From IMG/VR virus record IMGVR_UViG_3300009506_000036, positions 1 to 57,745 of that record: a DNA stretch of 57,745 nucleotides, one strand, 5' to 3'. The stretch's first letter is position 1. Each line of letters opens with the position of its first letter. The notes beneath the pieces are model-generated. The model did no database searches. It was not told the origin of the DNA and saw only the letters and a list, made by a program, of their open reading frames with translations. A program made the position numbers and the translations under genes. Below are positions 5,875 to 55,885 of this stretch, one piece after another. Source of the DNA: a virus.

Positions 5875-6330
5875 TTACTTGCGGGAGATGATGACGACCC
5901 CTTTCTTGGGGTCGACCGAGGTGCCGTACTTCCCGTGTCCGAACTGACGACCCATGGACATCGAGAGAGCGTTGCGGAAGCTGGAGAGATCCCAGCCGTC
6001 GCCCCTGGGCGGCTTGACGTAGAACGTGTGACCCTTGGTCAGCTTCTCGGCCTTCTTCCAGACTTCCGCGTAGATCGGGACGCGACCTCTGCGCTTGCGC
6101 TGGGTGGCCTTCTTCTTGGTGGCCTTGGCCGTTCCCCTCTCGGGCTTGACCTTGGGTGCGCTGGCCGACTTGGAGGTCTTCTTCTTGGAGACCTTCTTCT
6201 TGGAGACCTTCTTCTTGGAGGTCTTCTTCTTGGAAGTCTTCTTCTTCTTGGTGGTTTTCTTGGTAGTCATGACAAATGGAGCAAGGTGTTGCTCAATGAG
6301 GGGTATGGTGATTGTGCTGTCGTTGTTCAC
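5875..6330 (-). CDS. Lysine-rich histone-H1-like DNA-binding protein
   Basis: The protein has a strongly basic N-terminal tail of repeated KTSKKK / KVSKKK units (about eight), a linker, and a folded C-terminal domain from about residue 80 (RVPIYAEVWKKAEKL ... KYGTSVDPKKGVVIISRK). Lys/Ser/Thr/Ala tails of this kind are known from bacterial H1-like and phage DNA-binding proteins, so binding of DNA is likely. Two starts are possible: the GTG at 6330, in GTGA overlap with the polymerase stop as elsewhere in this genome (151 aa), or the ATG at 6270 (131 aa, MTTKKTTKKK), which gives a cleaner protein but has no Shine-Dalgarno. The gene is followed at once by a strong terminator. Confidence 0.74.
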   Translation of the reverse strand: MNNDSTITIPLIEQHLAPFVMTTKKTTKKKKTSKKKTSKKKVSKKKVSKKKTSKSASAPKVKPERGTAKATKKKATQRKRRGRVPIYAEVWKKAEKLTKGHTFYVKPPRGDGWDLSSFRNALSMSMGRQFGHGKYGTSVDPKKGVVIISRK

Positions 6331-8654
6331 GACTCAGGAGTCCAGGGAATGAGGCGTCCATTCGCATCGAAGACAGGCTCAGCCTGTTTGTACCACCTGT
6401 GCATGAGCGCAGGCTCCGCGAGGACAGGGAGGTCAGTGACGACGGCTCTGAAGCCATCGACCATCAGACGAGCGATCTCGAAAGCCCGCTCGTGTGCGTA
6501 TTGATCATCGGGGATCTCGACGAGGTTCTCGTCGTGGATGAAGTTGACCGGGTGGCAGCCGAACAACATCGAGCGCTGTGCTGGATCGTAGCAAGCTCGG
6601 CGCACGTTCCAGACACCTAGTTTCGCTCCCTCTGCGGTTGGCGACTGTAGTGCCTTGCCGTTACAGCATGAGGTGTACGAGCAGTTTGCGCGGTACGCAC
6701 CGAACGTAGTCGTGTACGCGTATCGCTGCATCGGCTTCTCGCCCTCTTCGACAACCACGGGGGCTCCGAACTTGCAGGCGTTGGACACCCAGTCGAAATA
6801 GAGCTTGTATTCCGGGAAGGTGGACAGCCAGATCTCTCTGAGCTGGTGCGCCATCTCAATCGAAACAGCAACGTCATACGTTCCTGCTGCGTATTCCACA
6901 AACGTTGCAGGGCCAAGCCCACCTGGATAACCGAGTCCCGTAGGTTTCGCAAACTTGCGGAAGTGCTTGTAGAAGCTCCTGACTTCTTCTCGTTCATCTG
7001 TTTTGCAGCGGTAGAAGACCTTGTAGATATCGTCTTGATTGACGACTCCTTCTTGTTGGCAAGCCGTGCGGAAGCCCTCGTCTAGATGGTACGCCATCTG
7101 CGCACCCAGGTACTCGTGAGGGCCGATGCCTTGTTTGATGAGATCGCCCAACTGCGACTTGCCGAAGAGCGTGATCTGCGTCTGAGCAGCCGTCACCAGC
7201 TCAGCAGAGCTGTAGTCGACAGAGCACAGGAGATGACCTTCACGAGCCACGTAGCAGGGCCGGACCCTGGGATCGATGTTCTGCCCGTTGGCCGAAGGGT
7301 AGAGGTTGTCAGCGAAACTCGATGTACGCGTGGTGCGCACCAGGACGTTGAAGTTGAAGCGCACTACCCCACGCTTGGATTGCATGCGAGGCAATTCAGT
7401 AGTGAGGATCTTTCTGGTCTTCTGACGATCCAGGTACTGCCGGATGACCGGGCTCAAATGCTGGATGCTAAGGAGCACTGCTTCCTTGGCACTGACCTCT
7501 CCGGTCTTCGTCTCCTTCACAGGAAGTCCGGCCTTCTCCAGGAGAGACTTCACCAGCTCCTTCAAGGCCTTCTCGTTGACCGTGGGCTCTTTGCCCTTGG
7601 TCATCTTCTCCTCATCAGGAGCAGCCTCCTGGACCAGAGCAGCGAGTTTCTGGTAGTTCTCCGAGGGAAGGAGACCTCCATCGACCAGTGCCTTGGCTTC
7701 GAGAAAGATCTTGGTCGCTGCCTGGACCGACGACTGGAAGTTCCCACTGGCGGTCAGAGGCTCGCTGATCTTGTAGTCGGCGCAGAGCCCTTTCATGATG
7801 GGCCGACGCACTGGCGGCGGGTGTTTGGAGAAGTCCCATTGCAGCTTGCCGCTGTTGTTCTTGTAGGGACGAGGAGCCTCTCCAGGACGAAGGATACCGG
7901 CATCGACCAAGAGCTGGTGCTTCGCAGGGCTCTGCTCTTCGGCCATCCACTCTGCGACCTCCTGGATCTTCTCCGGATCGGTCATCATGCCCCAGCAGGT
8001 GTCATGACGGAGAGCGAAGTCAACGGCGGCCAGGAACTCCCTGGTGACCATGGATCCCGGGCCACTCTCTGTCGCCTTGTTCTCTTGTTGCTCAGCAATG
8101 CGAAGTGTGGAGAGCGCATCCTGGGATGCGTACTGATAGGCCTCGGGTGGATACTCGCTGGCTTTCTTGCCATCGAGCATGCTGAAGTTCAACCGCCAGG
8201 CATCGTCGTCTTTCTTCTCGTGAGTGCGGTCGATGCCCAAGTACTGTGTCTCAAGCTCTGCCAAGCTGTACCCTCGGTGCGTGAGCGATCCGTCCGGCAG
8301 CTCTCGCTTCTCCAGCTGACCGTGAGAGCCGAGGTCGAGGAGCTTCTCGTTGCACTGTGTGCAAGTGATGCGCTCTTCCCCGTAAGCCGCCCAGATCGCT
8401 TCGGTCAACTCTGGGTAGCTGTTGACGATGACGGTGGTGTCGTAAGCAGTGTCGTGTCCGACCAGGCGAAGACCAGGCGTGGTGAACATCCACTTGAGCA
8501 TCGGCAACAGCTCCTCGTCACCGTTGCCGTAGAGTCGGGTCTCGTATCCGCCTGGTGCATTGCCGTTGGAGAAAGAAACAGACAGACACACCAGCTTCGG
8601 CGCGACTGTCTCTTCCCCGATCAAGTACGTTTCAGTGTCGAAGGCTACAAGCAT
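6327..8654 (-). CDS. Family A DNA polymerase with 3'-5' exonuclease (Leu762-type)
   Basis: The phage replicative polymerase, 775 residues. The proofreading domain shows FDTET (residues 5-9), GHDTAYD (about 67) and YASQDALS (about 176), matching the DEDDy exonuclease motifs. The polymerase domain shows motif A SVDYSSAELV (about 480), motif B RKFAKPTGLGYPGG (about 568) and motif C FIHDENL (about 707). Aligning motif B with E. coli RRSAKAINFGLIYG places Leu at position 762, where E. coli has Phe and T7 has Tyr. Tyr766 is also replaced, within a GYPGG segment. No 5'-nuclease domain is present. The ATG at 8654 follows CTAGCCAC without a strong ribosome site. Confidence 0.96.
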   Translation of the reverse strand: MLVAFDTETYLIGEETVAPKLVCLSVSFSNGNAPGGYETRLYGNGDEELLPMLKWMFTTPGLRLVGHDTAYDTTVIVNSYPELTEAIWAAYGEERITCTQCNEKLLDLGSHGQLEKRELPDGSLTHRGYSLAELETQYLGIDRTHEKKDDDAWRLNFSMLDGKKASEYPPEAYQYASQDALSTLRIAEQQENKATESGPGSMVTREFLAAVDFALRHDTCWGMMTDPEKIQEVAEWMAEEQSPAKHQLLVDAGILRPGEAPRPYKNNSGKLQWDFSKHPPPVRRPIMKGLCADYKISEPLTASGNFQSSVQAATKIFLEAKALVDGGLLPSENYQKLAALVQEAAPDEEKMTKGKEPTVNEKALKELVKSLLEKAGLPVKETKTGEVSAKEAVLLSIQHLSPVIRQYLDRQKTRKILTTELPRMQSKRGVVRFNFNVLVRTTRTSSFADNLYPSANGQNIDPRVRPCYVAREGHLLCSVDYSSAELVTAAQTQITLFGKSQLGDLIKQGIGPHEYLGAQMAYHLDEGFRTACQQEGVVNQDDIYKVFYRCKTDEREEVRSFYKHFRKFAKPTGLGYPGGLGPATFVEYAAGTYDVAVSIEMAHQLREIWLSTFPEYKLYFDWVSNACKFGAPVVVEEGEKPMQRYAYTTTFGAYRANCSYTSCCNGKALQSPTAEGAKLGVWNVRRACYDPAQRSMLFGCHPVNFIHDENLVEIPDDQYAHERAFEIARLMVDGFRAVVTDLPVLAEPALMHRWYKQAEPVFDANGRLIPWTPES

Positions 8655-9723: not shown

Positions 9724-11907
9724 CTAGGAGAACTTCTCGTTGAGGAACTCCTGCTGTTCACGGGTGAGCTGATGGTTCTGGAACCCACGCTCCCGAAGCA
9801 CCTCTGAAGGGAAGATAATGGGCAGAGGATCGTACCCTGCGTACACCAGCTTCTGGCGGTTGCCGGTGGACTGGTGGATGTACAAGGCATCGTTCAGGCA
9901 GGCCGCGAAGTTGAGGGAGTCAAACTCCGTCGTGGTGTTGATCTGAGGCAACAGCTCGTCAGCCTCCTGGCCGTTCCTGTGGGTCCTTCCCAGCACCTGC
10001 TCAGCCACGATAGCTGGGCGAGGCCACTGCACGTAGTACGTGTGCTCGAAGTGCTGGAGGTTTTTGCCAGTGCCGTGGGCAGTGATCGAGGCAATGATCA
10101 AGCGATCAGCGTTGGCTGGATCGAGGATGCGCTTGGATCCTGCGGCACCGGCATGACAGTGAACGGGATCAAGTCCCATGGACTTGCCCATCTCGGTGAG
10201 CCAGTCGCCGATGCCATTGTTGTGATACCAGATGATCTTCCCACCGGATATCCCGGAAGCCCAGACGAGAGCGTTGCGCACCTTGTAGTCACAGAGACGC
10301 ACGACCCTGGACATGCGCTCAGGCATCCCTTCGACTTCCATCCCCTTGGCGGTAGCCCACAGATCGTACAGATCGATCGGCACGTTTGCGCTTCCGTATC
10401 TGGCCATGTTGCTCTCGACGCTCAGGGGAGTATCGAGACCTGGAACGGAGTTCTCTTGCAAGAACCTCCTGAGCATCCTGGCGAAAGCCTGACGCGCTTC
10501 GTGGTGAGCCTTGGCTGCTCTGATGAGGTCGGCTGCTTCGGACTCTCCAACGCCGACTCGTTTAGCGAAGGGCTCGACCTCTGGCCAGATCAGCTCGTTG
10601 TAGAACCCAGCGGTCAGCTCGAAGTTCCACTTGAAGGTATGGATAGCATGCTCGATCTCATCGCCGTTCGGTGTAATCCAGGCGTCGTTGACCTGGGCCA
10701 TGAGCTGCTCAACACGGTTCCACCCTTCGTACCCTTGGTAGTTCTCGATCGGTCGTGTCTGAATCGTGAGAGACGTTCCAATCTCGGTGTCCCCGGTGGC
10801 GGCGACTCCGGGGGCAGTCGCCAGTCGGAGCTTGAAGGCCTTCCTGAAACCTGCCTTGCTGAAGGGAATGTCCACGTCGTAGAACCAGTTGAGCGCCCAG
10901 TCAACAAGAGGCCGGATGGGACCAGTCGAGGCCTCGTCAGGCTCGAACTGCGAGTTGGCATCGATGACAGATGCCCACCCTTTGGCCAGCATCACTTGCT
11001 TCGGAAGTGGGCTGTTGCTACCCAAAGCCACACCGATCAGGTGGTGATAGTCCATGATCGACTTGGCAGTCACCGTACCACTCATGGCCACAAGCTCAGG
11101 CTCAGTGTCACGGTCGTGGATCCAGTTGAACAATCGCTTGGTTCTCGTGGTATCACGATTCTTCAACATGTGGGCTTCGTCCGCGATGATCAACTCGGGA
11201 TCGATCATGTTGAGCAGGCCAGGTTTCTCGATCTCCGTACCGTCCTTCATCTTCTCGGTCACCGTGATGGTGTCTTTCGTGGACAGCTGAGAGTAGGGCA
11301 TGATGTAACACCCTACCTTGCCACTGTTGGCGATCTGCTTACGTTGCAGCATCGTCTTTCCGTAGAGCGAGATGAACGGGACCGTGAGCAGGACTCGTCT
11401 GCGTGCCCACCCTATGTCTGTCTTGAGCAGTTGAGGGCACACGTTCGGCGGGATCAACATCAGGCTCTTCCTGATGCCCTTGCGAAAGGCGATCTCTGCG
11501 ACCATCAGAGCCACCATGGTCTTCCCCCAGCCCACGCCGATTGGACCGAACAGTCCACCGAAGCGCATGTAGTTGAGGATTGCCTCGGCCTGGATGTCGA
11601 AGAACCGCCATCCCTTCTCCCACTGGTCGGCATTGATGAACATCTTACCGAACGCTTCGGTCTCCTCAGGCGAGAGTCCATGGTCGATCGGGAGTTCACA
11701 GATGCGCTGAATTTCAGCGTACTCACCGAGTTTCTTCTTGGTGAGCGAAGCGACGGCAGTGCGTACCTGGATCTTGGTACCTAGCAAAGGGACAGCGTTT
11801 GGTCCCTGAGCAGGCTCAGGAACAGCTACCTGAGGGAGGGAGACAGGAGGGCCCGGTAGCGCCTCAGCAGCCTGCATCCTCGCGTTGAGTCGTTCTGAGA
11901 GTGTCAT
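9724..11907 (-). CDS. SNF2-like superfamily 2 DNA helicase
   Basis: A 727-residue ATPase. Motif I is GPIGVGWGKT (about 115-124), motif II LIIADEAHML (DEAH, about 240), motif III AMSGT, and the C-terminal lobe has SITAHGTGKNLQ (motif V) and QVLGRTHRNGQ (motif VI), the arrangement of phage SNF2/DEAD-like helicases. The substrate would be duplex or branched DNA during replication or recombination. The N-terminal 80 residues include a Pro-rich stretch. The ATG at 11907 lies in CTAGAACTAGACATG and the first 44 bp overlap the preceding small gene. Confidence 0.92.
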   Translation of the reverse strand: MTLSERLNARMQAAEALPGPPVSLPQVAVPEPAQGPNAVPLLGTKIQVRTAVASLTKKKLGEYAEIQRICELPIDHGLSPEETEAFGKMFINADQWEKGWRFFDIQAEAILNYMRFGGLFGPIGVGWGKTMVALMVAEIAFRKGIRKSLMLIPPNVCPQLLKTDIGWARRRVLLTVPFISLYGKTMLQRKQIANSGKVGCYIMPYSQLSTKDTITVTEKMKDGTEIEKPGLLNMIDPELIIADEAHMLKNRDTTRTKRLFNWIHDRDTEPELVAMSGTVTAKSIMDYHHLIGVALGSNSPLPKQVMLAKGWASVIDANSQFEPDEASTGPIRPLVDWALNWFYDVDIPFSKAGFRKAFKLRLATAPGVAATGDTEIGTSLTIQTRPIENYQGYEGWNRVEQLMAQVNDAWITPNGDEIEHAIHTFKWNFELTAGFYNELIWPEVEPFAKRVGVGESEAADLIRAAKAHHEARQAFARMLRRFLQENSVPGLDTPLSVESNMARYGSANVPIDLYDLWATAKGMEVEGMPERMSRVVRLCDYKVRNALVWASGISGGKIIWYHNNGIGDWLTEMGKSMGLDPVHCHAGAAGSKRILDPANADRLIIASITAHGTGKNLQHFEHTYYVQWPRPAIVAEQVLGRTHRNGQEADELLPQINTTTEFDSLNFAACLNDALYIHQSTGNRQKLVYAGYDPLPIIFPSEVLRERGFQNHQLTREQQEFLNEKFS

Positions 11908-14391: not shown

Positions 14392-14579
14392 GACTGAGGT
14401 CTCTTGCCGAGTTTGGTCAGCTGCAAGGAGGCCTTGCAGTACTCGACTATGTTGCGGAGCAGCTCCATGTACTGCTCATCGTCAAGTCCTTCAGCACCTT
14501 TCTTGAGCTGAGTGATGGTGTCGCGGAGCACGATGTCTTCGCGGGACATCGGCTCTCTGTACTTACGTCTGGTTGCCAC
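14388..14579 (-). CDS. Small helical hypothetical protein
   Basis: 63 residues, two predicted helices (REDIVLRDTITQLKKGAEG and DEQYMELLRNIVEYCKASLQL). It begins with GTG at 14579 inside the end of the primase-helicase gene (17-bp overlap) and is coupled to the next gene by ATGA. Function unknown; perhaps a replication accessory. Confidence 0.58.
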   Translation of the reverse strand: MATRRKYREPMSREDIVLRDTITQLKKGAEGLDDEQYMELLRNIVEYCKASLQLTKLGKRPQS

Positions 14580-17238
14580 TTGCCCACATCTCCTGTACTC
14601 TTTGTACGGTTGTTTCTGTTTGGGTCTCTAGTAACTCTTGCCTGCTGGCTAACGCTTCCAGTCTAGGGCAGCGGAAGCCGAATTCAACAGCCTCCAGATA
14701 GAGAGTCTTGGTATCGACTTCTCTCCACCTGGCTCGTTGTGTGCCCCCATCGGGGGTAGGCAACGATCTCACGTTGCCCACATAGGCATCGTCGTTCACT
14801 GCCTGGAGGCCTCTAAGCACCTTGGACACAATGACCACTGTAAGGTCACCCTTGCGAGTTGCGGTAGCTATGAAGTCCCGGAAGTATTCGACGATCCCCT
14901 GGGCAGTCACAAACACTCTTCCGTCGTAGATGGTGTACCCATACTTCTTCGGGTTGGTATCGATCATCTTGATCAAGCATTCTACGACCAGCGGTGCAGA
15001 TCCACCGCGAGTCACCATGGACATCACCAGGCGATCCTGGATGTTGCCCTCGACCAGGTATCGGTTACCGGCAGGCACCTGGCTCCTGGTCTCGTACAGG
15101 TACCGGAAGTGCTTGGCCAATTTGTACGACCCTGGCGTTCCATTGTCACTACGGATCCACCCCCGAGTGTAGTTGAGTCCACCCATAGAGCGTAGCCACG
15201 CTGCACAACCACGAGGCACCTCGATGTGTACGATGCGCTCTGCGATTGCCCTGCGGTCCTCCGGTGACAGGTCACGGTCTCCTACCAGCTCACCGACCAC
15301 GTCGGTGTTGTTGGCAGTGATTATGATTCGCACCGGGTTGGACACCATCAAGGGAGGTCGGTAGAGGGGCCTCACGCGTATCGGATCGCCGGACACCATC
15401 GAGCGGAACACGTCCGGCAGATCCTGCCCGGACTTGATCCTGTGGATGCCCTCGTTGACCACGATGAGTGGAGTCCGCAGTAGCATGTCACCGAACCCAC
15501 CGAACTCTGCCGAGGTCGCGTAGATTGGATACTGCAAGCTCTCGGCCAGTCCAATCGCCAGCATCTTCTTGCCACAGCCGGGTTCCCCCTTGATGGACAA
15601 TGCCGCGATCGGTCCCTCCTCGAATGCCTGTGCTTGGCCCAACCAATTGCAGAGGAGCTCTACGTTATCTCCTCCCAGATGATTCAGCCAAGATTCAACC
15701 TCTCTTGACCTCTCACTTATCAGGTTCTGTGACCTGAAGTTGATAGGCAAGATCAGTTCTTGCTGCATCTCATTTCCCAGGTGCTCGACGAACGCTTTCG
15801 GTCCTCTCATCATGCACGCTACACGAGGCACCTGAGTGGCGTAGAGGTTCACTACCTTGGACCAGTGCATGTACACCTGTTCGCCACGCTGGTTCATTTC
15901 CGTCACTGGGATCAGTCTGTCCATGCCCAGCTGTTTGATCTTGCTGATCAGGTTCGGGCCGGTGACATTGTCAGGTGTGTAGAACCCATCAGGCTGCATG
16001 ACATGGTACGTACCTCCCTGGACTCCGAGAATCATCTTGTTCTGGATCCACCAATACGCTGACGCATCCCCCTGCAACAGCTCTGGAGCCTTGCACCATG
16101 ATCGCATCCCTTGCAACAGGTTGCCCATCAAGCTGGTCTGCTCCTGTTGCACGTACGCTGTTCGCTTGGCGTCTTCTTCTTCCTCGTGTTTGACCTTGGC
16201 GTCTTCCTTGGCCCAGTAGCTCAGCACAGCTCTCCAGCCTGTCGCTGTGAAGTCTTCCGGGTCGGATGGGTCCTGGGCATTGAGCTGCTGCAGAGCAGTG
16301 TAGAAGAGCGCGTAGATCAGCTCAGGGGTCGTGCCTCTGATGCGACTGGAGTAGAGGACAGCAATGGCCTCACCTACCAGTCGCTGGATCTCACTGTTGC
16401 GAGAGCCCTTGTCAGCGATGGGGGCTTCCTTGAAGATCACCTCGTAGCACTGTCGTCCGGCCAGTGCCTTCTTCACAGCCTTGGCCCAGTAGGTGAGTAC
16501 TTCTCTCCCGTTGTCGGGGTTGATTTCGTGCAGCGCCTGCAGAGTCCACTGCGGCTCTGGCTGAGGAAGTGACAGTTGCTCGACGTTGGAGTACTTGTGA
16601 GTGACGGAGGTCTCGCATGGAGTGATCGAGTAGGGGTCCAGAGTCACCCCGGTCTGCACGAGCAGTTCATAGTAGTCCTCCGACCAGGTGGCTACCCCAT
16701 CTCGCATCACCTGGGGCATGCGGTACAGCCTGGTCCAGTCATGGACCGGGTCAGTGACGATGCCGTAGGCAGCGAAGTCCCTGGCGATTCCTCGCATGAT
16801 ACCTTCAGCCATCTCCACGGTGACGGGTTCAGAGAGCACGTATCCGAACCTCGCACCACCACGAGTGTAGTAGAAGAACGACCACTTCACCGTCAGGTCG
16901 AACTGGGCATCGGCAGCTTCCAGAAGAGATCGCTCGAAGGAGTCCTTGTCTTGCTTCGTCCAAGCACTGTGGCCAGGTCGGTCGTAATCCACCATGACGA
17001 CGGTGGTCTTCACGTCGTATCCGGCCTCACGTAGCCAGGAGAGAGCAGGCTTGGTCACACGCCTCGGAGGGATCTGTTCACCTCCGTAGTAGAGCTGGTA
17101 CGTGAAGCAGTGCGCGTCCGTAGCGAACTGAGTCGACAGAGCTTGCGTCACCTCCATGCAGATGTGAGGTGACGCAGTGAGATCCTTGTACTCCTTGACT
17201 CCGGGAACGAACTTGTCAGGAACGATTCCTAGGTGCAT
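14563..17238 (-). CDS. Bifunctional primase-helicase (AEP-like N-terminus, SF3/AAA+ C-terminus)
   Basis: 891 residues from the ATG at 17238; a TTG 57 bases upstream is the other option. The N-terminal part has TTVVMVDYDRPGHS (DxD, archaeo-eukaryotic primase motif I), a central RGGARFGYVL and TDPVHDWTRLYRMPQ, as in AEP primases. The C-terminal half has IKGEPGCGKKMLA (Walker A, about 560), LIVVNEG (Walker B) and RIIITANNTD (sensor), as in D5/P4-type superfamily 3 helicases. The Walker A ends GKK where GKS/T is usual. It would prime and unwind at the replication fork. The start overlaps a small membrane-protein gene by 23 bp. Confidence 0.85.
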   Translation of the reverse strand: MHLGIVPDKFVPGVKEYKDLTASPHICMEVTQALSTQFATDAHCFTYQLYYGGEQIPPRRVTKPALSWLREAGYDVKTTVVMVDYDRPGHSAWTKQDKDSFERSLLEAADAQFDLTVKWSFFYYTRGGARFGYVLSEPVTVEMAEGIMRGIARDFAAYGIVTDPVHDWTRLYRMPQVMRDGVATWSEDYYELLVQTGVTLDPYSITPCETSVTHKYSNVEQLSLPQPEPQWTLQALHEINPDNGREVLTYWAKAVKKALAGRQCYEVIFKEAPIADKGSRNSEIQRLVGEAIAVLYSSRIRGTTPELIYALFYTALQQLNAQDPSDPEDFTATGWRAVLSYWAKEDAKVKHEEEEDAKRTAYVQQEQTSLMGNLLQGMRSWCKAPELLQGDASAYWWIQNKMILGVQGGTYHVMQPDGFYTPDNVTGPNLISKIKQLGMDRLIPVTEMNQRGEQVYMHWSKVVNLYATQVPRVACMMRGPKAFVEHLGNEMQQELILPINFRSQNLISERSREVESWLNHLGGDNVELLCNWLGQAQAFEEGPIAALSIKGEPGCGKKMLAIGLAESLQYPIYATSAEFGGFGDMLLRTPLIVVNEGIHRIKSGQDLPDVFRSMVSGDPIRVRPLYRPPLMVSNPVRIIITANNTDVVGELVGDRDLSPEDRRAIAERIVHIEVPRGCAAWLRSMGGLNYTRGWIRSDNGTPGSYKLAKHFRYLYETRSQVPAGNRYLVEGNIQDRLVMSMVTRGGSAPLVVECLIKMIDTNPKKYGYTIYDGRVFVTAQGIVEYFRDFIATATRKGDLTVVIVSKVLRGLQAVNDDAYVGNVRSLPTPDGGTQRARWREVDTKTLYLEAVEFGFRCPRLEALASRQELLETQTETTVQRVQEMWASGNQT

Positions 17239-17341
17239 GGTCGAAGTCAGGGTGGTCAGGACAGTGAGCAGGGTTGTGCAGGGCTGCAATGACAAACAGG
17301 AAGAGCCCTAGCCCTATGAAAGAGCACGCGAGGATGATCAT
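17216..17341 (-). CDS. Small one-helix membrane protein
   Basis: A 41-residue frame starts at ATG 17341 with TAGGAG seven bases upstream; the TAG is the stop of the previous gene. The protein is MIILACSFIGLGLFLFVIAA followed by a polar tail with HNPAHCPDHPDFDHAPRNR, i.e. one transmembrane helix and a His/Asp/Cys-rich end that could bind metal. It ends 23 bp inside the primase-helicase gene, which suits coupled translation of that enzyme. Spacing, hydrophobic pattern and the otherwise empty gap support it. Confidence 0.6.
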   Translation of the reverse strand: MIILACSFIGLGLFLFVIAALHNPAHCPDHPDFDHAPRNRS

Positions 17342-17350
17342 CTGCTTCTC

Positions 17351-17560
17351 CTAGGTTGGGAATGTTGGTAGTGGCTTGCCATCGAGGAGCACCGTCCCCT
17401 TGATCACAGGGGGACGGTGCTCCTCGGGGTAGCGAAGGTCGGCGTACTCCTTGAAACTGACCTTAGCGAAGGCTGCTGCCCTCTTGATCGTGTCGGTGCA
17501 GTACTCACAGAATGGATATGCTTCCACCTTGCACCGACGACACCACTTCTTCTCAGTCAT
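17351..17560 (-). CDS. Small zinc-finger protein
   Basis: 69 residues with two CxxC knuckles near the start (WCRRCKVEAYPFCEYC), a short basic helix and a C-terminal strand region (IKGTVLLDGKPLP). A single zinc site is likely. It overlaps the previous gene by 8 bp and its stop TAG is part of the next ribosome site. Function unknown. Confidence 0.66.
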   Translation of the reverse strand: MTEKKWCRRCKVEAYPFCEYCTDTIKRAAAFAKVSFKEYADLRYPEEHRPPVIKGTVLLDGKPLPTFPT

Positions 17561-17765
17561 TGTCCGCCATCCTGAGAGTCACAGACGCCTCAGGGGCCAA
17601 CGTGGTGGAACTCTCACCGTGCTGCAGGATGACCTGTTCATCCCTGACAGCTACGATGTCGACGACTGTCCATCCTGTCTTCAGGTGGACCATGTCGCCA
17701 GGTCTGATGTCCTGTGCTGACAGCTGGTGCGCTGTCGTGTACGTCGTTCTGGTTCCAGGTTCCAT
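17553..17765 (-). CDS. Small beta-rich protein
   Basis: 70 residues with DIRPGDMVHLKTGWTVVDIVAV, a pattern like small SH3/KOW-type barrels that have a GDxV turn. First gene after a terminator-like double hairpin, and thus maybe the head of the primase operon. No strong Shine-Dalgarno before the ATG. Function unknown. Confidence 0.62.
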   Translation of the reverse strand: MEPGTRTTYTTAHQLSAQDIRPGDMVHLKTGWTVVDIVAVRDEQVILQHGESSTTLAPEASVTLRMADND

Positions 17766-23323: not shown

Positions 23324-23878
23324 TTACTCGGTCCTCCTGATGTACTGTGCCCGGCCAAGCAAACCAGGGCATCCCTTGTGTCGATAGATCGCTCCACGTT
23401 CCTGAATGTTTGCGTGTCGCTTGCCAGTAGCTTCAATCTCGAAGCCACAGATAGAACACTTGTACAGGTACCGTTTCATGGTCCTGCGTTTCACGAGCAA
23501 CCCCATCTCGGAGCAGTGAGTAGTCCGATTCCCGTCCGCTCCGAATTGCCTCGCGATAGCTCGCCAGTAGATGTTATGGCCAGCAGTCTTAGGTGCGGCA
23601 ATGTGGGCCAGCTCGTGACGGATTGTTTCTTCGCGCCTGTGGGCATTCTCGGGCGCGGCCAGAAGTCGCGAGAGCTTGACTCGTTTCAATCCCCAGTTAG
23701 CAGACCCGAGGGTTTGCGTCATCCGGGGACCAATCTCCATCCAAGTCCCTTGAAGTCGCTTCGCGTACTGTGGGAATCGTTCACACAGTTCCCTCCGGAT
23801 TGATAGGAAGAGGGGATGGAGAATCAAGTAGGCTTCATGTTTGTCCGGCAAGTTGCGTAGAGCGCGTTCCGGTACCAT
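23324..23878 (-). CDS. SprT-like zinc metalloprotease
   Basis: 184 residues from the ATG at 23878 (AAGGAGCCTGGAC). HELAHI (about residue 88) is the HExxH zinc-protease signature, followed by GHNIYWRAIARQFG, which gives the third zinc ligand context, and a C-terminal zinc ribbon YKCSICGFEIEATG ... HKGC. This is the SprT/Spartan-type layout seen in phages and bacteria. Spartan homologues cut proteins cross-linked to DNA; here the substrate is unknown. It heads the minus-strand small-gene cluster, after a possible terminator region. Confidence 0.86.
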   Translation of the reverse strand: MVPERALRNLPDKHEAYLILHPLFLSIRRELCERFPQYAKRLQGTWMEIGPRMTQTLGSANWGLKRVKLSRLLAAPENAHRREETIRHELAHIAAPKTAGHNIYWRAIARQFGADGNRTTHCSEMGLLVKRRTMKRYLYKCSICGFEIEATGKRHANIQERGAIYRHKGCPGLLGRAQYIRRTE

Positions 23879-24004
23879 GTCCAGGCTCCTTTTGTTTGCT
23901 AGGGTCAGTGAAATACAATCGGGCACTGTGCTCCGATTGTTTGTAGGGTGGGGAGCGGTTCGCACGCCGGGCCACTACTCCTGGCTGCGCTCCTGACCTC
24001 CCCC

Positions 24005-25216: not shown

Positions 25217-25851
25217 TGAATCGGTCCTCCTTGATTCACAAGGGCCAGGGCCAGGCGCTTCCGGGAATCACTTCGGCGCGCATACCAATACTTGCCACGT
25301 CGATGCCAGCGGAATCCAGCTGAGCGAAGCATCGAAAGGATTCGGGCCTCGGGGCGAGAAGCGAATGTGATCTCGATTCCGTCCTTTTCGATGTTCTCGC
25401 GATACGAGCACTGAGGGACCGCCGGACATTCCGTAGCCTTGTCCTGGAAGATTGCGTCCGGGGAGAGGAACTGTAGCGGGTCAACGTCGGAGCGCAGTGC
25501 CCTGGATTGGTTCCGCGAGACCTTGCCCTGTGAATCGATGCGTGATTGCCAGTTCGCGATTGCGTGCGCAGCCCCTGCAATCGCGAGTACGGCGTTAGAT
25601 CCAAGGGCGAGTATCCGTCCGTCGGCCTTGACCAATCCGATGGCGGGATCGGATTGCCCTGATTCGTGCTCTTGAATGATTCGGCGCGCGTCATCGGCGG
25701 ATTCCGCGTCGACGATTGCGACTGTCCCTTTTCCTTCTTCCGCCATACGCTGGAAGTCCCGAATCCGGATGGCCGAGCATTCCGCCGTGGCCGTGCCTTG
25801 TACCTTGTAAATGCGACACCGTTTCGGTTTCCACAGGATGAGCGTTTTCAT
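25213..25851 (-). CDS. Protein with C-terminal GFRW...WYA motif
   Basis: 212 residues from the ATG at 25851. The N-terminal part (LILWKPKRCRIYKVQG; AVAIVDAESADDARRIIQEH-like segment) and a helical middle lead to SMLRSAGFRWHRRGKYWYAR at the C-terminus. GFRWxxxxxxWYA motifs end several plasmid and phage proteins (often DNA-modifying or DUF3560-like), so a nucleic-acid link is possible. The leader CCACTACAC-AGGAAACAAAC is nearly identical to that of the next gene upstream, suggesting shared control. Confidence 0.68.
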   Translation of the reverse strand: MKTLILWKPKRCRIYKVQGTATAECSAIRIRDFQRMAEEGKGTVAIVDAESADDARRIIQEHESGQSDPAIGLVKADGRILALGSNAVLAIAGAAHAIANWQSRIDSQGKVSRNQSRALRSDVDPLQFLSPDAIFQDKATECPAVPQCSYRENIEKDGIEITFASRPEARILSMLRSAGFRWHRRGKYWYARRSDSRKRLALALVNQGGPIQ

Positions 25852-25894
25852 GTTTGTTTCCTTGTGTAGTGGATTGCAGTGAGTAGTGGAAAGC

Positions 25895-25921
25895 AAAGGG
25901 AACGCGTGGCGTCTTCCCTTT
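25895..25921. promoter_or_regulatory. 27-bp palindrome, copy A
   Basis: AAAGGGAACGCG on the left faces CGTCTTCCCTTT on the right, a near-perfect inverted repeat 44 bp upstream of the 25851 start. A second copy lies at 26292-26318 upstream of the 26234 start. It is a probable operator or RNA-processing hairpin. The rest of the 25852-26006 gap has no visible gene. Confidence 0.55.
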
Positions 25922-26006
25922 GTGTGCGGGGAGGGAAGGCAAGAGGAGAGCACGGGAGAGAGAGAACCCGCGCGCGTCACTCGATTGCCTTCCCTGTACT
26001 ACTGAA

Positions 26007-26234
26007 TCAGAACCATGTCCAGCTGGTCATGATTTCCTCGGCGAACGTGTCGGAGCAAGTGATCAAGGCCAACCGGACATTGTCCAGCGCCCGCACCTTT
26101 GACTGGACGGCTAGCCGTCTCATCCTTTCCCCCTCCGGGATCGATCGGATCTTCCGTTCACCTTGTTCGCGGATTCTGTCGAGAGCTTGAATCATCATCT
26201 CGACCCTGCCGTTTGTTTGACTTTGTAAGCACAT
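26007..26234 (-). CDS. Small helical protein, first minus-strand gene of the early block
   Basis: 75 residues, helical and basic in the middle (QALDRIREQGERKIRSIPEG; RMRRLAVQSKVRALD). The ATG is preceded by the leader CCACTACACTAGGAAACAAAC shared with the next gene. It is the first gene on the minus strand after the origin-like region. No family recognised; a regulator role is possible. Confidence 0.58.
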   Translation of the reverse strand: MCLQSQTNGRVEMMIQALDRIREQGERKIRSIPEGERMRRLAVQSKVRALDNVRLALITCSDTFAEEIMTSWTWF

Positions 26235-26253
26235 GTTTGTTTCCTAGTGTAGT

Positions 26254-26289
26254 GGAAAAGGAAAAGGAAAAGGAAAAGGAAAAGGAAAA
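26254..26289. repeat. Six GGAAAA hexamers in tandem
   Basis: A perfect 6 x 6-bp run, giving a purine-only strand, between the leader of the 26234 gene and palindrome copy B. Copy A lacks this insertion, so the run is probably a slippage expansion that changes spacing between operator and leader. Confidence 0.85.
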
Positions 26290-26291
26290 GC

Positions 26292-26318
26292 AAAGGGAAC
26301 GCATTGCGTCTTCCCTTT
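26292..26318. promoter_or_regulatory. 27-bp palindrome, copy B
   Basis: AAAGGGAACGCA faces GCGTCTTCCCTTT, the same inverted repeat as copy A at 25895-25921 with three differences in the centre. Flanking bases (AAGC before, GTG after) match too. Confidence 0.55.
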
Positions 26319-26889
26319 GTGAGCGGAGCGGTTCGATCGGTTTCCTATGAATCGAACCGCGCGCCGATTGTCTGTTGTTTTATCGATCCAATCGAACGGG
26401 ACAATCGAACGGTTTCGATTGAATCGGCTCGCCGTTTCTCCGTGATCCCTCGGGGCGGATTGAAACGGTATCTAGTTGAAAAGGAGTGTGGCGCGACTCA
26501 CTTCGGCAATCCCTTGCGCATCTCCAATGGCCCGCAATCGGCGGGAGAGAGCGCATGGCCCCTGGTGTGTCACCCCCCGCCGGATGCGCCCGGGCCCTTG
26601 GGCACCCCTTTTCAGAGTGTCCGGCCCGGGCCCCTACGGGGCACCAGGGCACGGGCCCCCACACTGTCACTGTGGGGTGCCTTGCCGTGCCTAGTTGCTC
26701 GTTCGGCGCGTGGCGCGCTCTACCCTGTGGGGTGAGGCCTCTCGACTTATCGGGGGATCGGCCGGGCCGTCCCTCAGCATCGGGCGGGGACGGGGACCGA
26801 TCGGTCGGGCGAGAATGGCGCGGGCGTTTCCGAACGGGCGAGATGTCACAGAACACCCTATAGACTACCCTTCTCCTATGCGTGAGCAA

Positions 26890-26937
26890 CAGTGCAAACG
26901 GTTCGGAATAGGGCATTCCTACTAACCGTTTGCACTG
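26890..26937. repeat. Perfect 14-bp inverted repeat with inner stem
   Basis: CAGTGCAAACGGTT (26890-26903) faces AACCGTTTGCACTG (26924-26937); the 20-bp spacer holds a second stem GGAAT/ATTCC. A related half-site CCGTTTACACTG occurs at 27119-27130. It could be a cruciform, an iteron pair or a regulator site. Confidence 0.75.
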
Positions 26938-27013
26938 TATAGACTTATGACCGCTTGTTTTTTCGGGATTGCCCTGGACGATCAAGGGGTGGGCCAGGGC
27001 TAGCGGGTCCCGT

Positions 27014-27204
27014 GCGCTCCTGTGGGGCCCTGTGGGCGCGCGGGCCCCTGGCCAGGGGTCACAGGGGCCCGGGCCCTGTGGCGCTCTCCTGGGGGGCCCT
27101 GTGGGGCCCGCGCGGGGACCGTTTACACTGTAAAACAGTGCGCACTATTACCGGGAATCGTGGTTTTCCCTTGACTGTCACGAGCGCTCCTGTGGGGCCT
27201 TGTG
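27014..27204. repeat. Three GCGCTCCTGTGGGGCC-type direct repeats
   Basis: Copies near 27014, 27081 and 27184 share GCGCTCCTGTGGGGCC with small changes and are followed by TTGTG or CTGTG. They lie in GC-rich DNA full of GGGGCCC palindromes. No function recognised. Confidence 0.55.
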
Positions 27205-27228
27205 AGAGCACGAGTGGTGTCCGGGTCA

Positions 27229-27880
27229 TATAACCCTCAGTGATTGTAAAAAGCTCGACAGGAGCGATTCTAGGATTTTACAATATATGCGACATCCTAT
27301 AATGGGCATTCTAGGGGCCGTGAAGGCCGATTCTGATAGGAAATTGCATATACAGTGGTCAGGAAAGCATACTCTAGCGGGTTATAGGGTATGAATCTTG
27401 TGGCTAACCCGGATCGGGGATCACAGGCGCACAGACCCCACAGGGGTGTGCCGTGCGTCCTAAGTCCTTTGCTGGCAAGGGGTTATGTCGACGTGACTCA
27501 GCCAGAGGACCAAACCTCTTATAAGGAAACGTAGGTGGTGTTATTGTGGTATACTACTTGCTACACTCATTTCACTCAGTTTAGGGGACACAATGTTGCC
27601 AAATGGGCTAAGTATAGTAATAACAAGGGGTTACGTCGACACAGGGTAGGTTTTGGGGGTGTGCCGATGTGCGGTTATACGAGGGGTTATATGAGCTAAG
27701 CCTAGTAATAACAATGGGTTAGGGCATATAACCCCCCTCTCTTTATACAAGGATATAGCATTTATAAGTAAGTGACCACTTACACTTATAACCCTTATAA
27801 GGGATATAGTAAGTGATCACTTACACTAGCCTCCGGCCCACTGTACCCGATTGAGGGTCTTATCCCTTGACAGGGTTATA
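27229..27880. repeat. GGGTTATA motif family
   Basis: At least eight copies of GGGTTAT(A), or close forms, occur in both orientations: forward at 27379, 27479, 27627 (GGGGTTACG), 27683 and 27873; reverse (TATAACCC) at 27229, 27727 and 27787. Two of the forward copies share GTCGAC after the motif, and two longer segments share CTAAG.-TAGTAATAACAA. Iteron-like or operator sites are likely. Confidence 0.62.
27768..27824. promoter_or_regulatory. Two 16-bp palindromes
   Basis: GTAAGTGATCACTTAC (27809-27824) is a perfect palindrome and GTAAGTGACCACTTAC (27768-27783) differs in one base; their centres are 41 bp apart, about four helical turns. This is the shape of paired operators for a dimeric repressor. 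Confidence 0.6.
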
Positions 27881-27884
27881 CAGG

Positions 27885-27976
27885 ATATCAGGATCTACAG
27901 ATCTGATATAAGCATGCCCCAGTGCTCTAGTGGGGAATAGGTCTATATCAGATATCAGGATCTAGAGATCTGATAT
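27885..27976. repeat. Duplicated hairpin ATATCAGGATCT...AGATCTGATAT
   Basis: Copies at 27885-27909 and 27952-27976 each form an 11-bp stem with one bulged G. The loop differs slightly. They are 67 bp apart and close the AT-rich part of the region. Confidence 0.6.
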
Positions 27977-28124
27977 AGCCCCTGGCCCCTGCCTTCGCGC
28001 ACTGGCCTGGGCCCGGGCCCCTGGCCCCTGGCCAGACCCCTGGCCCGCGCGGGCCCTGGGGGGCTGGACGGGGGGCCAGGGCCCGACCCCTGGCCCCTGG
28101 CCAGGGCCCTCAGCCGGCCCCCCC

Positions 28125-28223
28125 GTTTGTAGATACTATCCACATTGTGGATACTATCTACAAACGCACAGGGCCCTGCCCTTGTGGATAGTAGATACAA
28201 ACGTGACGGATAGTATCTGCAAA
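28125..28223. promoter_or_regulatory. DnaA-box-like repeats in a 41-bp inverted repeat plus two more copies
   Basis: GTTTGTAGATACTATCCACA (28125-28144) faces its inverted copy (28146-28165) around one base, with one C/C mismatch. A third copy lies at 28182-28202 (TTGTGGATAGTAGATACAAAC-type, 21 bp) and a partial fourth at 28207-28223. The inner parts TATCCACA / TGTGGATA match eight of nine bases of the DnaA box TTATCCACA. This is the strongest origin signal in the window. Confidence 0.6.
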
Positions 28224-28532
28224 GGCTACGTAGAGAATCGGGGTCCAGGTCCAATGACCCATGTCCTTTTGCACGGCCCAAAATTTGTGCGCTGTGAAAA
28301 ATTCGAGGCCCATATAAGGTGCCTCGAACAAGAAGTCTGTTTACAATTACCTTACAAGAAAAAGGCCTTCGCAGGCCCTCCCCGCCCCTCAGGCCGACCG
28401 ATTACTGTAAATGGTGCTTGCGCAGGGGGTTACGATCGGGTATGGACGACTGACTCCTTCGTGGAGATTCATGCGACATCTCCAAGTTCTCCAGCGGGTG
28501 GGTCAGCCAACAACTGGTCCACCCGCCTCCAC

Positions 28533-29672
28533 ATGACCGAAGCCCTCGATCGAGCCTACGACCGCTTCAGACAGGACGTGATCCTCGCGCACGAGCGCAA
28601 GGTCGCGCGATGTCAGCTGCCCATGCTGGTCTCCGAGATCCCTCCTCACCTGAGGCACAACGGGCAGAAGAGGGCCATTCACCAGCTGTCGCCCGAAATC
28701 AGCGACCGGCTGGGGGCCACACACCTCCTCCTGGCCCGGCCAGATGCCCCACCCGAGTCCCTGGAGCCCTACCTCTCCGCGGACAGGCTGTCCATGGAGG
28801 ACGCGAAGCCCTTCCGGGTGGCCATGGCCTGGCGCATCGTGCGCACCCTGGCGCGCCTGAAGGGCCTGGTGGCCGACGAGGAGCTGCTGGTCGAGGCGCT
28901 GCCCTTCGAGCCCTCGCCGTGGATCGAGGCACAGACAGGTTATGGAGCGCTCCCACCGGAGCAGAAGACCGTCGTCTTCCGCGAGATGAGGATCGAGCCC
29001 GCTGTCCGACAGATCTGCGCCATGGCGATCGAGCTGCCGCTCCTGCCGCCGCTACCGCCGAAGGAGACCCCGTTCGACATCGAGAGGTACACGACGGACA
29101 GCGACGAGAAGTTGCTCTCGTACGTGGACATGATAGCGCGCATGTGTGCTCACTACGGGTACAACAGCCACGTCGATGGAGTGTACGGGATGGCCGGGCT
29201 CCTGGAGCCTGACCTGATCCGCCTGGTGTTCCCCTCGCCGGGCGAGATCATGAGTTACGAGAACGTCCTGGCGCTGAAGATCGCCGACATGCTCGGGTAC
29301 CACCCGATGCGCGACATCAGGCGGTCACTCGCGGAGGTCTATCACCTGACGGAAGGGGAGATCAACGTAGCGCTGAAGATCGGCGTCGGGCAGCTCCACA
29401 AACAACACAGCCAAGACGTGGAAGACGCCAGGGCGATGATGATCGCCCGCACCGAGGACTTCATCTCGCGCTCGAAGGAGAGCCTCGACCTGACCAACGA
29501 AGCGAAGGGCCTGAAGATCCTCACCCTCGTGCAGGGCCTTGTGCGCACTGAACCGGAGGACGCGAACAAGGATTTCGAACAGATGGTTGACAAGGTGGCG
29601 GGTGAGCAGCCAACGATCAGCCGTCCAGAGATCACAGTGATCGATGTACCTAACCTATCACGGGAGAACTGA
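28533..29672 (+). CDS. First gene of packaging operon, possible small terminase subunit
   Basis: 379 residues from the ATG at 28533; no clear Shine-Dalgarno, and an in-frame GTG at 28461 is the alternative. The frame extends further upstream into the origin repeats but that part is not protein-like. The C-terminal half has ENVLALKIADMLGYHP, RRSLAEVYHLTEGEINVALKI (helix-turn-helix-like), and a helical tail. Its place as first gene of the operon that ends with TerL, with a DNA-binding-like segment, makes small terminase possible, though it is longer than usual. Low certainty on function, higher on coding. Confidence 0.72.
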   Translation: MTEALDRAYDRFRQDVILAHERKVARCQLPMLVSEIPPHLRHNGQKRAIHQLSPEISDRLGATHLLLARPDAPPESLEPYLSADRLSMEDAKPFRVAMAWRIVRTLARLKGLVADEELLVEALPFEPSPWIEAQTGYGALPPEQKTVVFREMRIEPAVRQICAMAIELPLLPPLPPKETPFDIERYTTDSDEKLLSYVDMIARMCAHYGYNSHVDGVYGMAGLLEPDLIRLVFPSPGEIMSYENVLALKIADMLGYHPMRDIRRSLAEVYHLTEGEINVALKIGVGQLHKQHSQDVEDARAMMIARTEDFISRSKESLDLTNEAKGLKILTLVQGLVRTEPEDANKDFEQMVDKVAGEQPTISRPEITVIDVPNLSREN

Positions 29673-31809: not shown

Positions 31810-31977
31810 ATGCGTCGTCACGTACCCGTACCTCGTCCTACTGATCAACCGAAAGGTGACAAGCCACCTAAGATCAAGGAGAAGAAGCCGCTGCCTCCTG
31901 TGATGGCAGGTAGTGGTAGTTCGTTGCCCAGGGGAGGCCATACGGTCAAAACCAAGGGCATGAAGAAGCTCGGGTAG
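31810..31977 (+). CDS. Small basic protein
   Basis: 55 residues from the ATG at 31810 (GGAGGGCAACAAC upstream). Very basic and Pro-rich (MRRHVPVPRP; KPPKIKEKKPLPP; KTKGMKKLG) and probably disordered. It stops three bases before the TerL ATG. It may bind DNA or be a terminase accessory; this is context only. Confidence 0.6.
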   Translation: MRRHVPVPRPTDQPKGDKPPKIKEKKPLPPVMAGSGSSLPRGGHTVKTKGMKKLG

Positions 31978-54772: not shown

Positions 54773-55885
54773 TCAGCTCTTCTTGGTGGGATCGGTTCCG
54801 TTGATGTAGGCGGCCATGCGCTGCGCGCGTGTGAAGTCCTCCTTCGAGATGCCGGTGACGTTGCCTACTTGCTCGTCGGACTTCTTGACGTTCTTCTTCT
54901 TCTTGTCGTCGTCATCGTCCCCGGTGCCCTGGGTGGAGGCCTTGATGGCCTTCTCCAGCTGCTTGCGCAGCGACTTGACTTCCTCGGACTCCTCCTTGTC
55001 GTCTTCCTTCTTGTCGTCGTCGGACTTGCCGAAGGTGGCGAGGTAGTTCTCCAGGGCCTTCGGGTCGGTGAAGTCGACGGACTTGGCGAGGCGCCACGCC
55101 TTGACGACCTTGAGGTGAGCTGCGACATCCTCCTTCTTGAGCGGATCTCCGGTGAACTTGGGTTCGTCGTCGTCGGACTTCTTGTCGTCGGACTTCTTGT
55201 CGTCGGACTTCTTGAGGAGGGGAGTCAGCGCTTCGACCAGGCTTTTGGAGAGCGCTTCGTTGCCAGCGGTGATGGCCGCTTGAATGTCCTTGAGTTCCAT
55301 ATCGGTTGTTTGGGTTTGGCCCGTGAGGCGCTCTGCCAGGGCGTCGAGAATGGAGTCCACGTTGGGCTCGCCTTTGTTGACAAGCTCAACCTGTGCGTTG
55401 CCATACATGCTGACACCGTTCCACTTACCGGCTCGGTAGTCTGCCTTCAGCTCTTCCTTGTCCAGCTTGATCACCACAGCCCATCCACCGGTAACATCCA
55501 CCGGCTTGCCGTCGCGGTCTTTCTGGTTGGCGAAGTCTGGATCGTTCTTCTTGATGATGAACGACTCGGCCACGAAGGCATCTTCCTTGGCGACAGGCTT
55601 CAAGTTGTGCCTGATGTCCAGGGCGTGCCCATTGCGAGCGAAGGAGTAAGCCATCTCCTTGATGGCCTGAGAGGAAGCGAAGTCACCCTCGGTGTCCACG
55701 ACCTCGGGGGCCCAGACAACTGCGGTGATCACGCCCTCCTCTTCGAGACGATCGTCCTTCACCAGGGTGTCCAGCTCGAAGGCCCCATCGTCCTTGAAGA
55801 GGACTGGGAGGCGGTTTTTGCCCTTCGGACACAGGGAAATGAAGGTGATGTCGGCTTGTTTGATCCGGCGTTTTCGTGTAGGCAT
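54773..55885 (-). CDS. XkdF-like prohead protease/scaffold
   Basis: 370 residues. The N-terminal half has GVITAVVWAPEVVDTEGDFA, MAYSFARNGHALDIRHN and TGGWAVVIKLDKEELK, the pattern of the PBSX XkdF domain (putative serine protease of the prohead). The C-terminal half is an acidic-basic disordered coiled coil (repeats KKSDD/DDKK, residues 225-345), suitable as internal scaffold. The start at 55885 has GCAGGAG upstream. Matches the PBSX-type portal gene that diverges from it. Confidence 0.88.
   Translation of the reverse strand: MPTRKRRIKQADITFISLCPKGKNRLPVLFKDDGAFELDTLVKDDRLEEEGVITAVVWAPEVVDTEGDFASSQAIKEMAYSFARNGHALDIRHNLKPVAKEDAFVAESFIIKKNDPDFANQKDRDGKPVDVTGGWAVVIKLDKEELKADYRAGKWNGVSMYGNAQVELVNKGEPNVDSILDALAERLTGQTQTTDMELKDIQAAITAGNEALSKSLVEALTPLLKKSDDKKSDDKKSDDDEPKFTGDPLKKEDVAAHLKVVKAWRLAKSVDFTDPKALENYLATFGKSDDDKKEDDKEESEEVKSLRKQLEKAIKASTQGTGDDDDDKKKKNVKKSDEQVGNVTGISKEDFTRAQRMAAYINGTDPTKKS

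Follow-up and report, generated by a model that had tools for sequence, protein, structure and literature searches.

The ORF904 protein of pRN1 and the NrS-1 polymerase start the replication of their own elements (PMC4234260, PMC8718748), ORF904 and the P4 alpha protein are known to have a winged-helix C-terminus (PMC4234260, PMC8718748), and the D5/NrS-1 group has DUF5906 as its AAA+ helicase domain (PMC9611036). The virus record analysed here (57,745 bp; the window, meaning the whole stretch of DNA under analysis) encodes a PrimPol-DUF5906 protein, together with a family A polymerase, a DEAD-type helicase, a PD-(D/E)XK nuclease, a terminase, a portal and tail genes. The main replication genes, together with the first gene of the rightward operon, are:

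6327 to 8654, minus strand: family A DNA polymerase with a 3'-5' exonuclease domain
9724 to 11907, minus strand: DEAD/DEAH-type helicase
14563 to 17295, minus strand: PrimPol-DUF5906 replication protein, 910 aa, candidate initiator
28533 to 29672, plus strand: first rightward gene, hallmark of the family, possible small terminase subunit

The original prediction had placed a probable origin, used by host DnaA, at a repeat cluster near 28.1 kb, and had seen no obvious initiator among the phage genes. This last statement could not be maintained, as the 910-aa primase-helicase is a PrimPol-DUF5906 protein and this class has members that initiate replication (PMC4234260, PMC8718748). DUF5906 was found in all six family members tested for this protein, and its predicted N-terminal part gave fold matches to RepB' (E = 4.3e-4) and to the S-2L PrimPol (E = 1e-3), in a model of low confidence in the helicase part. 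The combination of PrimPol and SF3-like helicase in one protein, as in PrimPol-SF3 replicons, is present in this phage. By analogy with those replicons the protein could initiate by itself, and a dimeric accessory protein is equally possible as the binder of the palindromes described below. A 20-bp inverted repeat with a 4-nt loop (17383-17426, 95% complementary) was also observed about 90 bp before the PrimPol gene. Elsewhere in the window, a SprT-like protein (23324-23965) and an XkdF-like prohead protease (54773-55885) were noted.

The operons on either side of the predicted locus diverge, as had been claimed, across a region of about 2.2 kb whose small ORFs (within 26,335-28,530) score as non-coding by hexamer usage. 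The predicted gene-free region of 2.3 kb was thus recovered, but the repeats do not end it: the most likely start of the first rightward gene is ATG 28533, a position taken from the alignment of family members, about 310 bp to the right of the repeat array. The features of this region are:

26335 to 28530, no strand: gene-free, repeat-rich region from the leftward replication operon to the rightward operon, with non-coding ORFs, dyads and repeated 11-mers
26889 to 27147, no strand: fourth family, an inverted repeat ACAGTGCAAACGGTT / AACCGTTTGCACTGT at 26889-26938 and a related CCGTTTACACTGT..ACAGTG at about 27119-27142
26984 to 27121, no strand: G+C-rich block, left arm of the imperfect inverted repeats on either side of the A+T-rich zone
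27477 to 27976, no strand: least stable 500 bp of the window by helical stability, candidate DNA-unwinding zone
27603 to 27721, no strand: fifth family, CTAAGYMTAGTAATAACAAKGGGTTA, two copies 88 bp apart
27767 to 27827, no strand: second dyad family, AGTAAGTGAYCACTTACACT, two copies (27767 and 27808) 41 bp apart
27884 to 27981, no strand: third family, ATATCAGGATCTASAGATCTGATATA, two copies 67 bp apart
27980 to 28121, no strand: G+C-rich block, right arm, stopping 3 bp short of the dyad array
28127 to 28145, no strand: site 1 of the 19-bp dyad, TTGTAGATACTATCCACAt
28145 to 28163, no strand: site 2, TTGTGGATACTATCTACAA, exact to the consensus
28182 to 28200, no strand: site 3, TTGTGGATAGTAGATACAA
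28205 to 28223, no strand: site 4, diverged, right half retained, GACGGATAGTATCTGCAAA

Short dyads are in large excess in this region (10 vs 1.2 expected), and 25% of its bases lie in repeated 11-mers compared with 1.4% in shuffles. Besides the 19-bp dyad, at least four other repeat families are present as pairs. Whether stability is taken over 60, 100, 200 or 500 bp, the lowest value in the whole window falls in the A+T-rich DNA that had been reported beside the repeats, with the minimum at 27753-27812. The two G+C-rich blocks that frame this DNA (26984-27121 and 27980-28121) are imperfect inverted repeats of one another. The Rfam scan gave no match and no tRNA was found. To the right of the array, two minus-strand hairpins with trailing T-runs (28296-28328 and 28359-28377) were seen by eye and not flagged by program; they may be leftward terminators, which would halt a leftward transcript begun inside the rightward operon. 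On the other side, two leftward genes that are neighbours have in common a near-identical 5' leader (25849-25934 and 26232-26331) with a ribosome-binding site, CACTACAC and the hairpin AAAGGGAA..TTCCCTTT, probably a repeated promoter/leader cassette.

The array itself consists of four copies, starting at 28127, 28145, 28182 and 28205, of the 19-bp imperfect palindrome TTGTRGATASTATCYACAA. With up to three mismatches allowed, this sequence has three matches in the window, none of them off the array (the fourth copy is more diverged), and 100 dinucleotide-preserving shuffles gave a mean of 0.00. Sites 1 and 2 together form a 21-bp inverted repeat (28124-28166), whose arms CGTTTGTAGATACTATCCACA (28124-28144) and TGTGGATACTATCTACAAACG (28146-28166) are complementary at 20 of 21 positions around a 1-nt spacer, so the 41-bp inverted repeat with one mismatched pair described in the original prediction is real. 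The further copies that it placed at 28182 and, in part, at about 28207 are also present: the third (28182-28203) is complementary to the first at 19 of 21 positions, and the diverged fourth (28204-28225) agrees at 15 of 16 over 28208-28223. A nucleotide search of phage records gave no match. The exact 19-mer was found twice in viral contigs and seven times in GTDB genomes; all these matches were dismissed, as they lie within ORFs of unrelated, mostly A+T-rich DNA and are near the chance number, estimated by hand from the collection size. The repeats look like paired binding sites of a dimeric protein.

To compare the locus with relatives, alignment-based searches were needed, as single-protein searches of viral contigs failed. 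The first find was one full-length syntenic relative (G001), and a search with the terminase gave about 75 related uncultivated phage records. In the phage collection, tblastn with two marker proteins gave matches only below 60% identity, and no terminase relative that could lead through a prophage to the host was found in GTDB genomes. Gene order is conserved around the circle among the relatives, two of which have identical 127-bp ends, consistent with circular assemblies, and comparison with G001 suggests that the window is without only a short piece of the circle.

In these relatives, at 30-50% protein identity, a gap is found at the same divergence point and before the same gene family, separating leftward replication genes from a rightward block with the large terminase. 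The hallmark gene was found in 41 of 79 loci; in most of the rest, the sequence breaks off at this point. Repeats are enriched in each of the 11 gaps examined, where repeated 11-mers cover 9-55% of the bases (0.7-2.2% in shuffles), and the repeat sequences are private to each phage. When a fixed upstream zone was used instead of hand-set gaps, 9 of 33 regions were the most repeat-rich stretch of their own locus, a low number partly because in some relatives (such as G023) additional genes separate the gap from the hallmark gene. Furthermore, 14 of 29 loci have their least stable 100 bp within the upstream zone of 2.2 kb (3.4 expected, p = 1.5e-6), and the genome-wide stability minimum lies there in four of six near-complete genomes. 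The comparison with related phages proposed in the original prediction therefore had a mixed outcome: position, repeat richness and instability are kept, but the repeat sequences are not, although the neighbouring genes are; no close relative was found, so this applies to phages at 30-50% identity.

Several details were specific to some of these gaps. In two relatives whose gap DNA is about 70% identical, the dyad pair CGCCCCCA..TGGGGGCG keeps a spacing of roughly 253 bp. L141 (2830-3140) and L184 (3040-3350) each carry a near-symmetric block of roughly 250 bp with conserved spacing, a GC dyad and an ATCGGCC hairpin at each end and a GT-rich middle. Iterated units of a C-run followed by a T-run (e.g. 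CGACCCCCTAATTTTTTCC) were observed in several distant relatives, immediately ahead of the first rightward gene (L101 400-480, L102 5600-5770, L109 1320-1480, L111 330-540 and L105 1040-1180) and are not clearly present in the window; as a sequence motif common to the gaps, such a C-rich/T-rich unit is suggestive only. A long stem was found in the gaps of the window, G023 and L102 only, and a long stem-loop was rejected as a family feature, since 8 of 11 gaps are at or near the shuffle level.

Cumulative GC skew had been proposed as a check, with a minimum expected at the repeats. In the window the detrended minimum is at 31,899, 3.7 kb off the array, and not at 28.1 kb. Of five near-complete relatives, two have their minimum no more than about 0.5 kb from the gap, G001 (15,589; gap 16,050-17,700) and G025 (753; gap 1-632), and three have it off the gap (G019, G023 and G027). 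An AT-skew minimum at the gap was set aside and is not counted as evidence because AT skew follows gene direction. At four-fold sites, the plus strand of leftward genes carries more G to the right of the gap than to its left in four of five genomes (p = 0.055, 0.0003, 0.04 and 0.04), which is the expected direction, the fifth showing the opposite, and this difference could also be explained by expression-linked codon use. Taken together, skew is compatible with an origin at this place but not decisive.

The locus has the anatomy of an origin: a cluster of repeats adjoins the least stable DNA of the genome where transcription diverges. The best reading is that the 26.3-28.5 kb region is a replication origin combined with the control region of the two divergent operons, and we consider the chances of this evenly balanced. 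In the order of events that we infer, the A+T-rich block (27.2-27.98 kb), framed by its G+C-rich inverted repeats, would be the site of duplex opening, and the four palindromes (28127-28223) would be the site cluster for a dimeric (or multimeric), probably phage-encoded protein, which would mark the origin and might regulate transcription as well. Once the duplex is open, the PrimPol-DUF5906 protein would load, unwind and prime, and the family A polymerase would then extend, so that DNA synthesis would start here. The prediction of a probable origin thus gains from anatomy, position and an instability that recurs in relatives, and loses from repeats that are private to each phage and from its DnaA part. 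It is also opposed by the skew minimum of the window at 31.9 kb and the three relatives with minima off the gap, by the long stem, which would be expected from the pRN1 model and is not a family feature, and by the fact that a large regulatory region with divergent promoters would likewise be A+T-rich and filled with dyads. Nor was any initiator matched to the repeats, and the Pfam scan recognised neither a helix-turn-helix regulator nor an initiator among the proteins it covered.

DnaA binds an asymmetric 9-mer, and the array could be read as a set of variant DnaA boxes at which host DnaA starts replication. In this regard, the inner repeat NTATCCACA occurs three times in 56 bp and matches eight of the nine bases of the box, as originally stated; the missing base is the first T, which is replaced in all three copies (by C, G and C). 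The conserved unit is nevertheless the 19-bp palindrome, of which TATCCACA, with G at the variable base, is one half and TTGTAGATA, unlike a DnaA box, the other. The exact box TTATCCACA does not occur in the window, boxes with one mismatch are at the shuffle expectation (6 vs 6.4), and the strict TTWTNCACA is present once, at 28293-28301 (1.1 expected), with no cluster of such consensus boxes in the window. Across 29 upstream regions of relatives, strict boxes are in excess (12 vs 2.1 for permuted motifs, a number reached by 0 of 400 of them), but 23 of these regions have none and L103 supplies seven of the 12, the excess being marginal when it is left out (5 vs 2.0, p about 0.07). These seven lie in 1.06 kb of L103 (1-1059; 0.12 expected), in repeats such as GTGTGCATAATGTGTGCATAAC; L103 may use DnaA, and is the relative best suited to testing host DnaA use. 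For the window, DnaA is possible on this evidence, although weakly supported and not favoured, and that its array consists of DnaA boxes from which host DnaA starts replication appears very unlikely.

Two further readings assign the repeats no part in starting replication or a part in packaging. The palindromes may be bound by a phage repressor or activator of the divergent operons and play no part in initiating replication, which we consider somewhat unlikely. Two-fold symmetric 19-bp sites, closely spaced in tandem where operons diverge, are a typical form of operator, and several dyad families in one region would fit several regulators. However, promoter-like sites are at chance (2 vs 1.5 expected) and absent at the array, as judged with a sigma-70 consensus that may not be that of the host; no repressor or integrase was recognised among the Pfam-scanned proteins, most of which match no family; and 2.2 kb is long for operators alone. 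A packaging site stays a rival because the conserved first rightward gene immediately precedes the large terminase gene in L105 and its product has very weak small-terminase matches (PHROG E = 0.078, one member; BFVD E 0.4-3), which suggest that it could be a small terminase subunit, with the repeats as the pac site that it binds. The C-rich/T-rich units iterated before this gene in several relatives would also fit. Against this, the product has no significant sequence or structure match, the array lies about 310 bp before the gene, and packaging leaves the stability minimum and several other dyad families unexplained. We consider a pac site highly improbable.

Extending the origin reading to the whole family, the origin would keep both its divergence point and its architecture (an A+T-rich opening zone plus several paired dyad families) and every repeat would be replaced in each phage, a generalization that we put forward as unlikely. 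If it were true, a fixed place with replaced repeats would imply rapid co-evolution of initiator or regulator specificity, which could, for example, avoid cross-talk between co-infecting relatives. The locus is a probable origin for a diverse uncultivated phage family without a near relative in the searched phage collection, and its fixed place and changing repeats offer a comparative handle for origins where skew and DnaA boxes fail. In addition, the DnaA reading is corrected, as a 19-bp palindrome is the repeated unit and phage proteins are the first candidates to bind it.

Lastly, the locus has likenesses to several known systems. As in bacterial oriC and DnaA-dependent plasmid origins, a cluster of short repeats lies beside an unstable A+T-rich zone and eight of nine box bases are matched, whereas here the repeats contain no consensus box, the unit is a 19-bp palindrome and most relatives have no boxes. 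Lambda-type operator arrays also have several tandem palindromic sites between divergent operons, but no repressor gene was recognised among the scanned proteins here and the region is several times longer. Phage P4 likewise combines origin repeats (ori/crr) with an element-encoded multifunctional helicase-primase, the alpha protein (PMC4234260); alpha has a Toprim-type primase and binds ori/crr, whereas the protein here is a PrimPol for which repeat binding is a candidate function by analogy. pRN1 has one stem-loop of about 100 bp just 3' of its replication gene (PMC4234260), whereas the candidate here consists of dyad arrays about 9 kb upstream of the start of the replication gene, with no long stem conserved across the family. 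The closest likeness in gene content is to pRN1 ORF904 and its phage relatives (PMC4234260) and to the NrS-1 PrimPol (PMC8718748), which, like this phage, have a self-encoded PrimPol with an SF3/DUF5906 helicase domain, and as in PrimPol-SF3 origins the candidate origin described here combines low sequence conservation with a conserved position.
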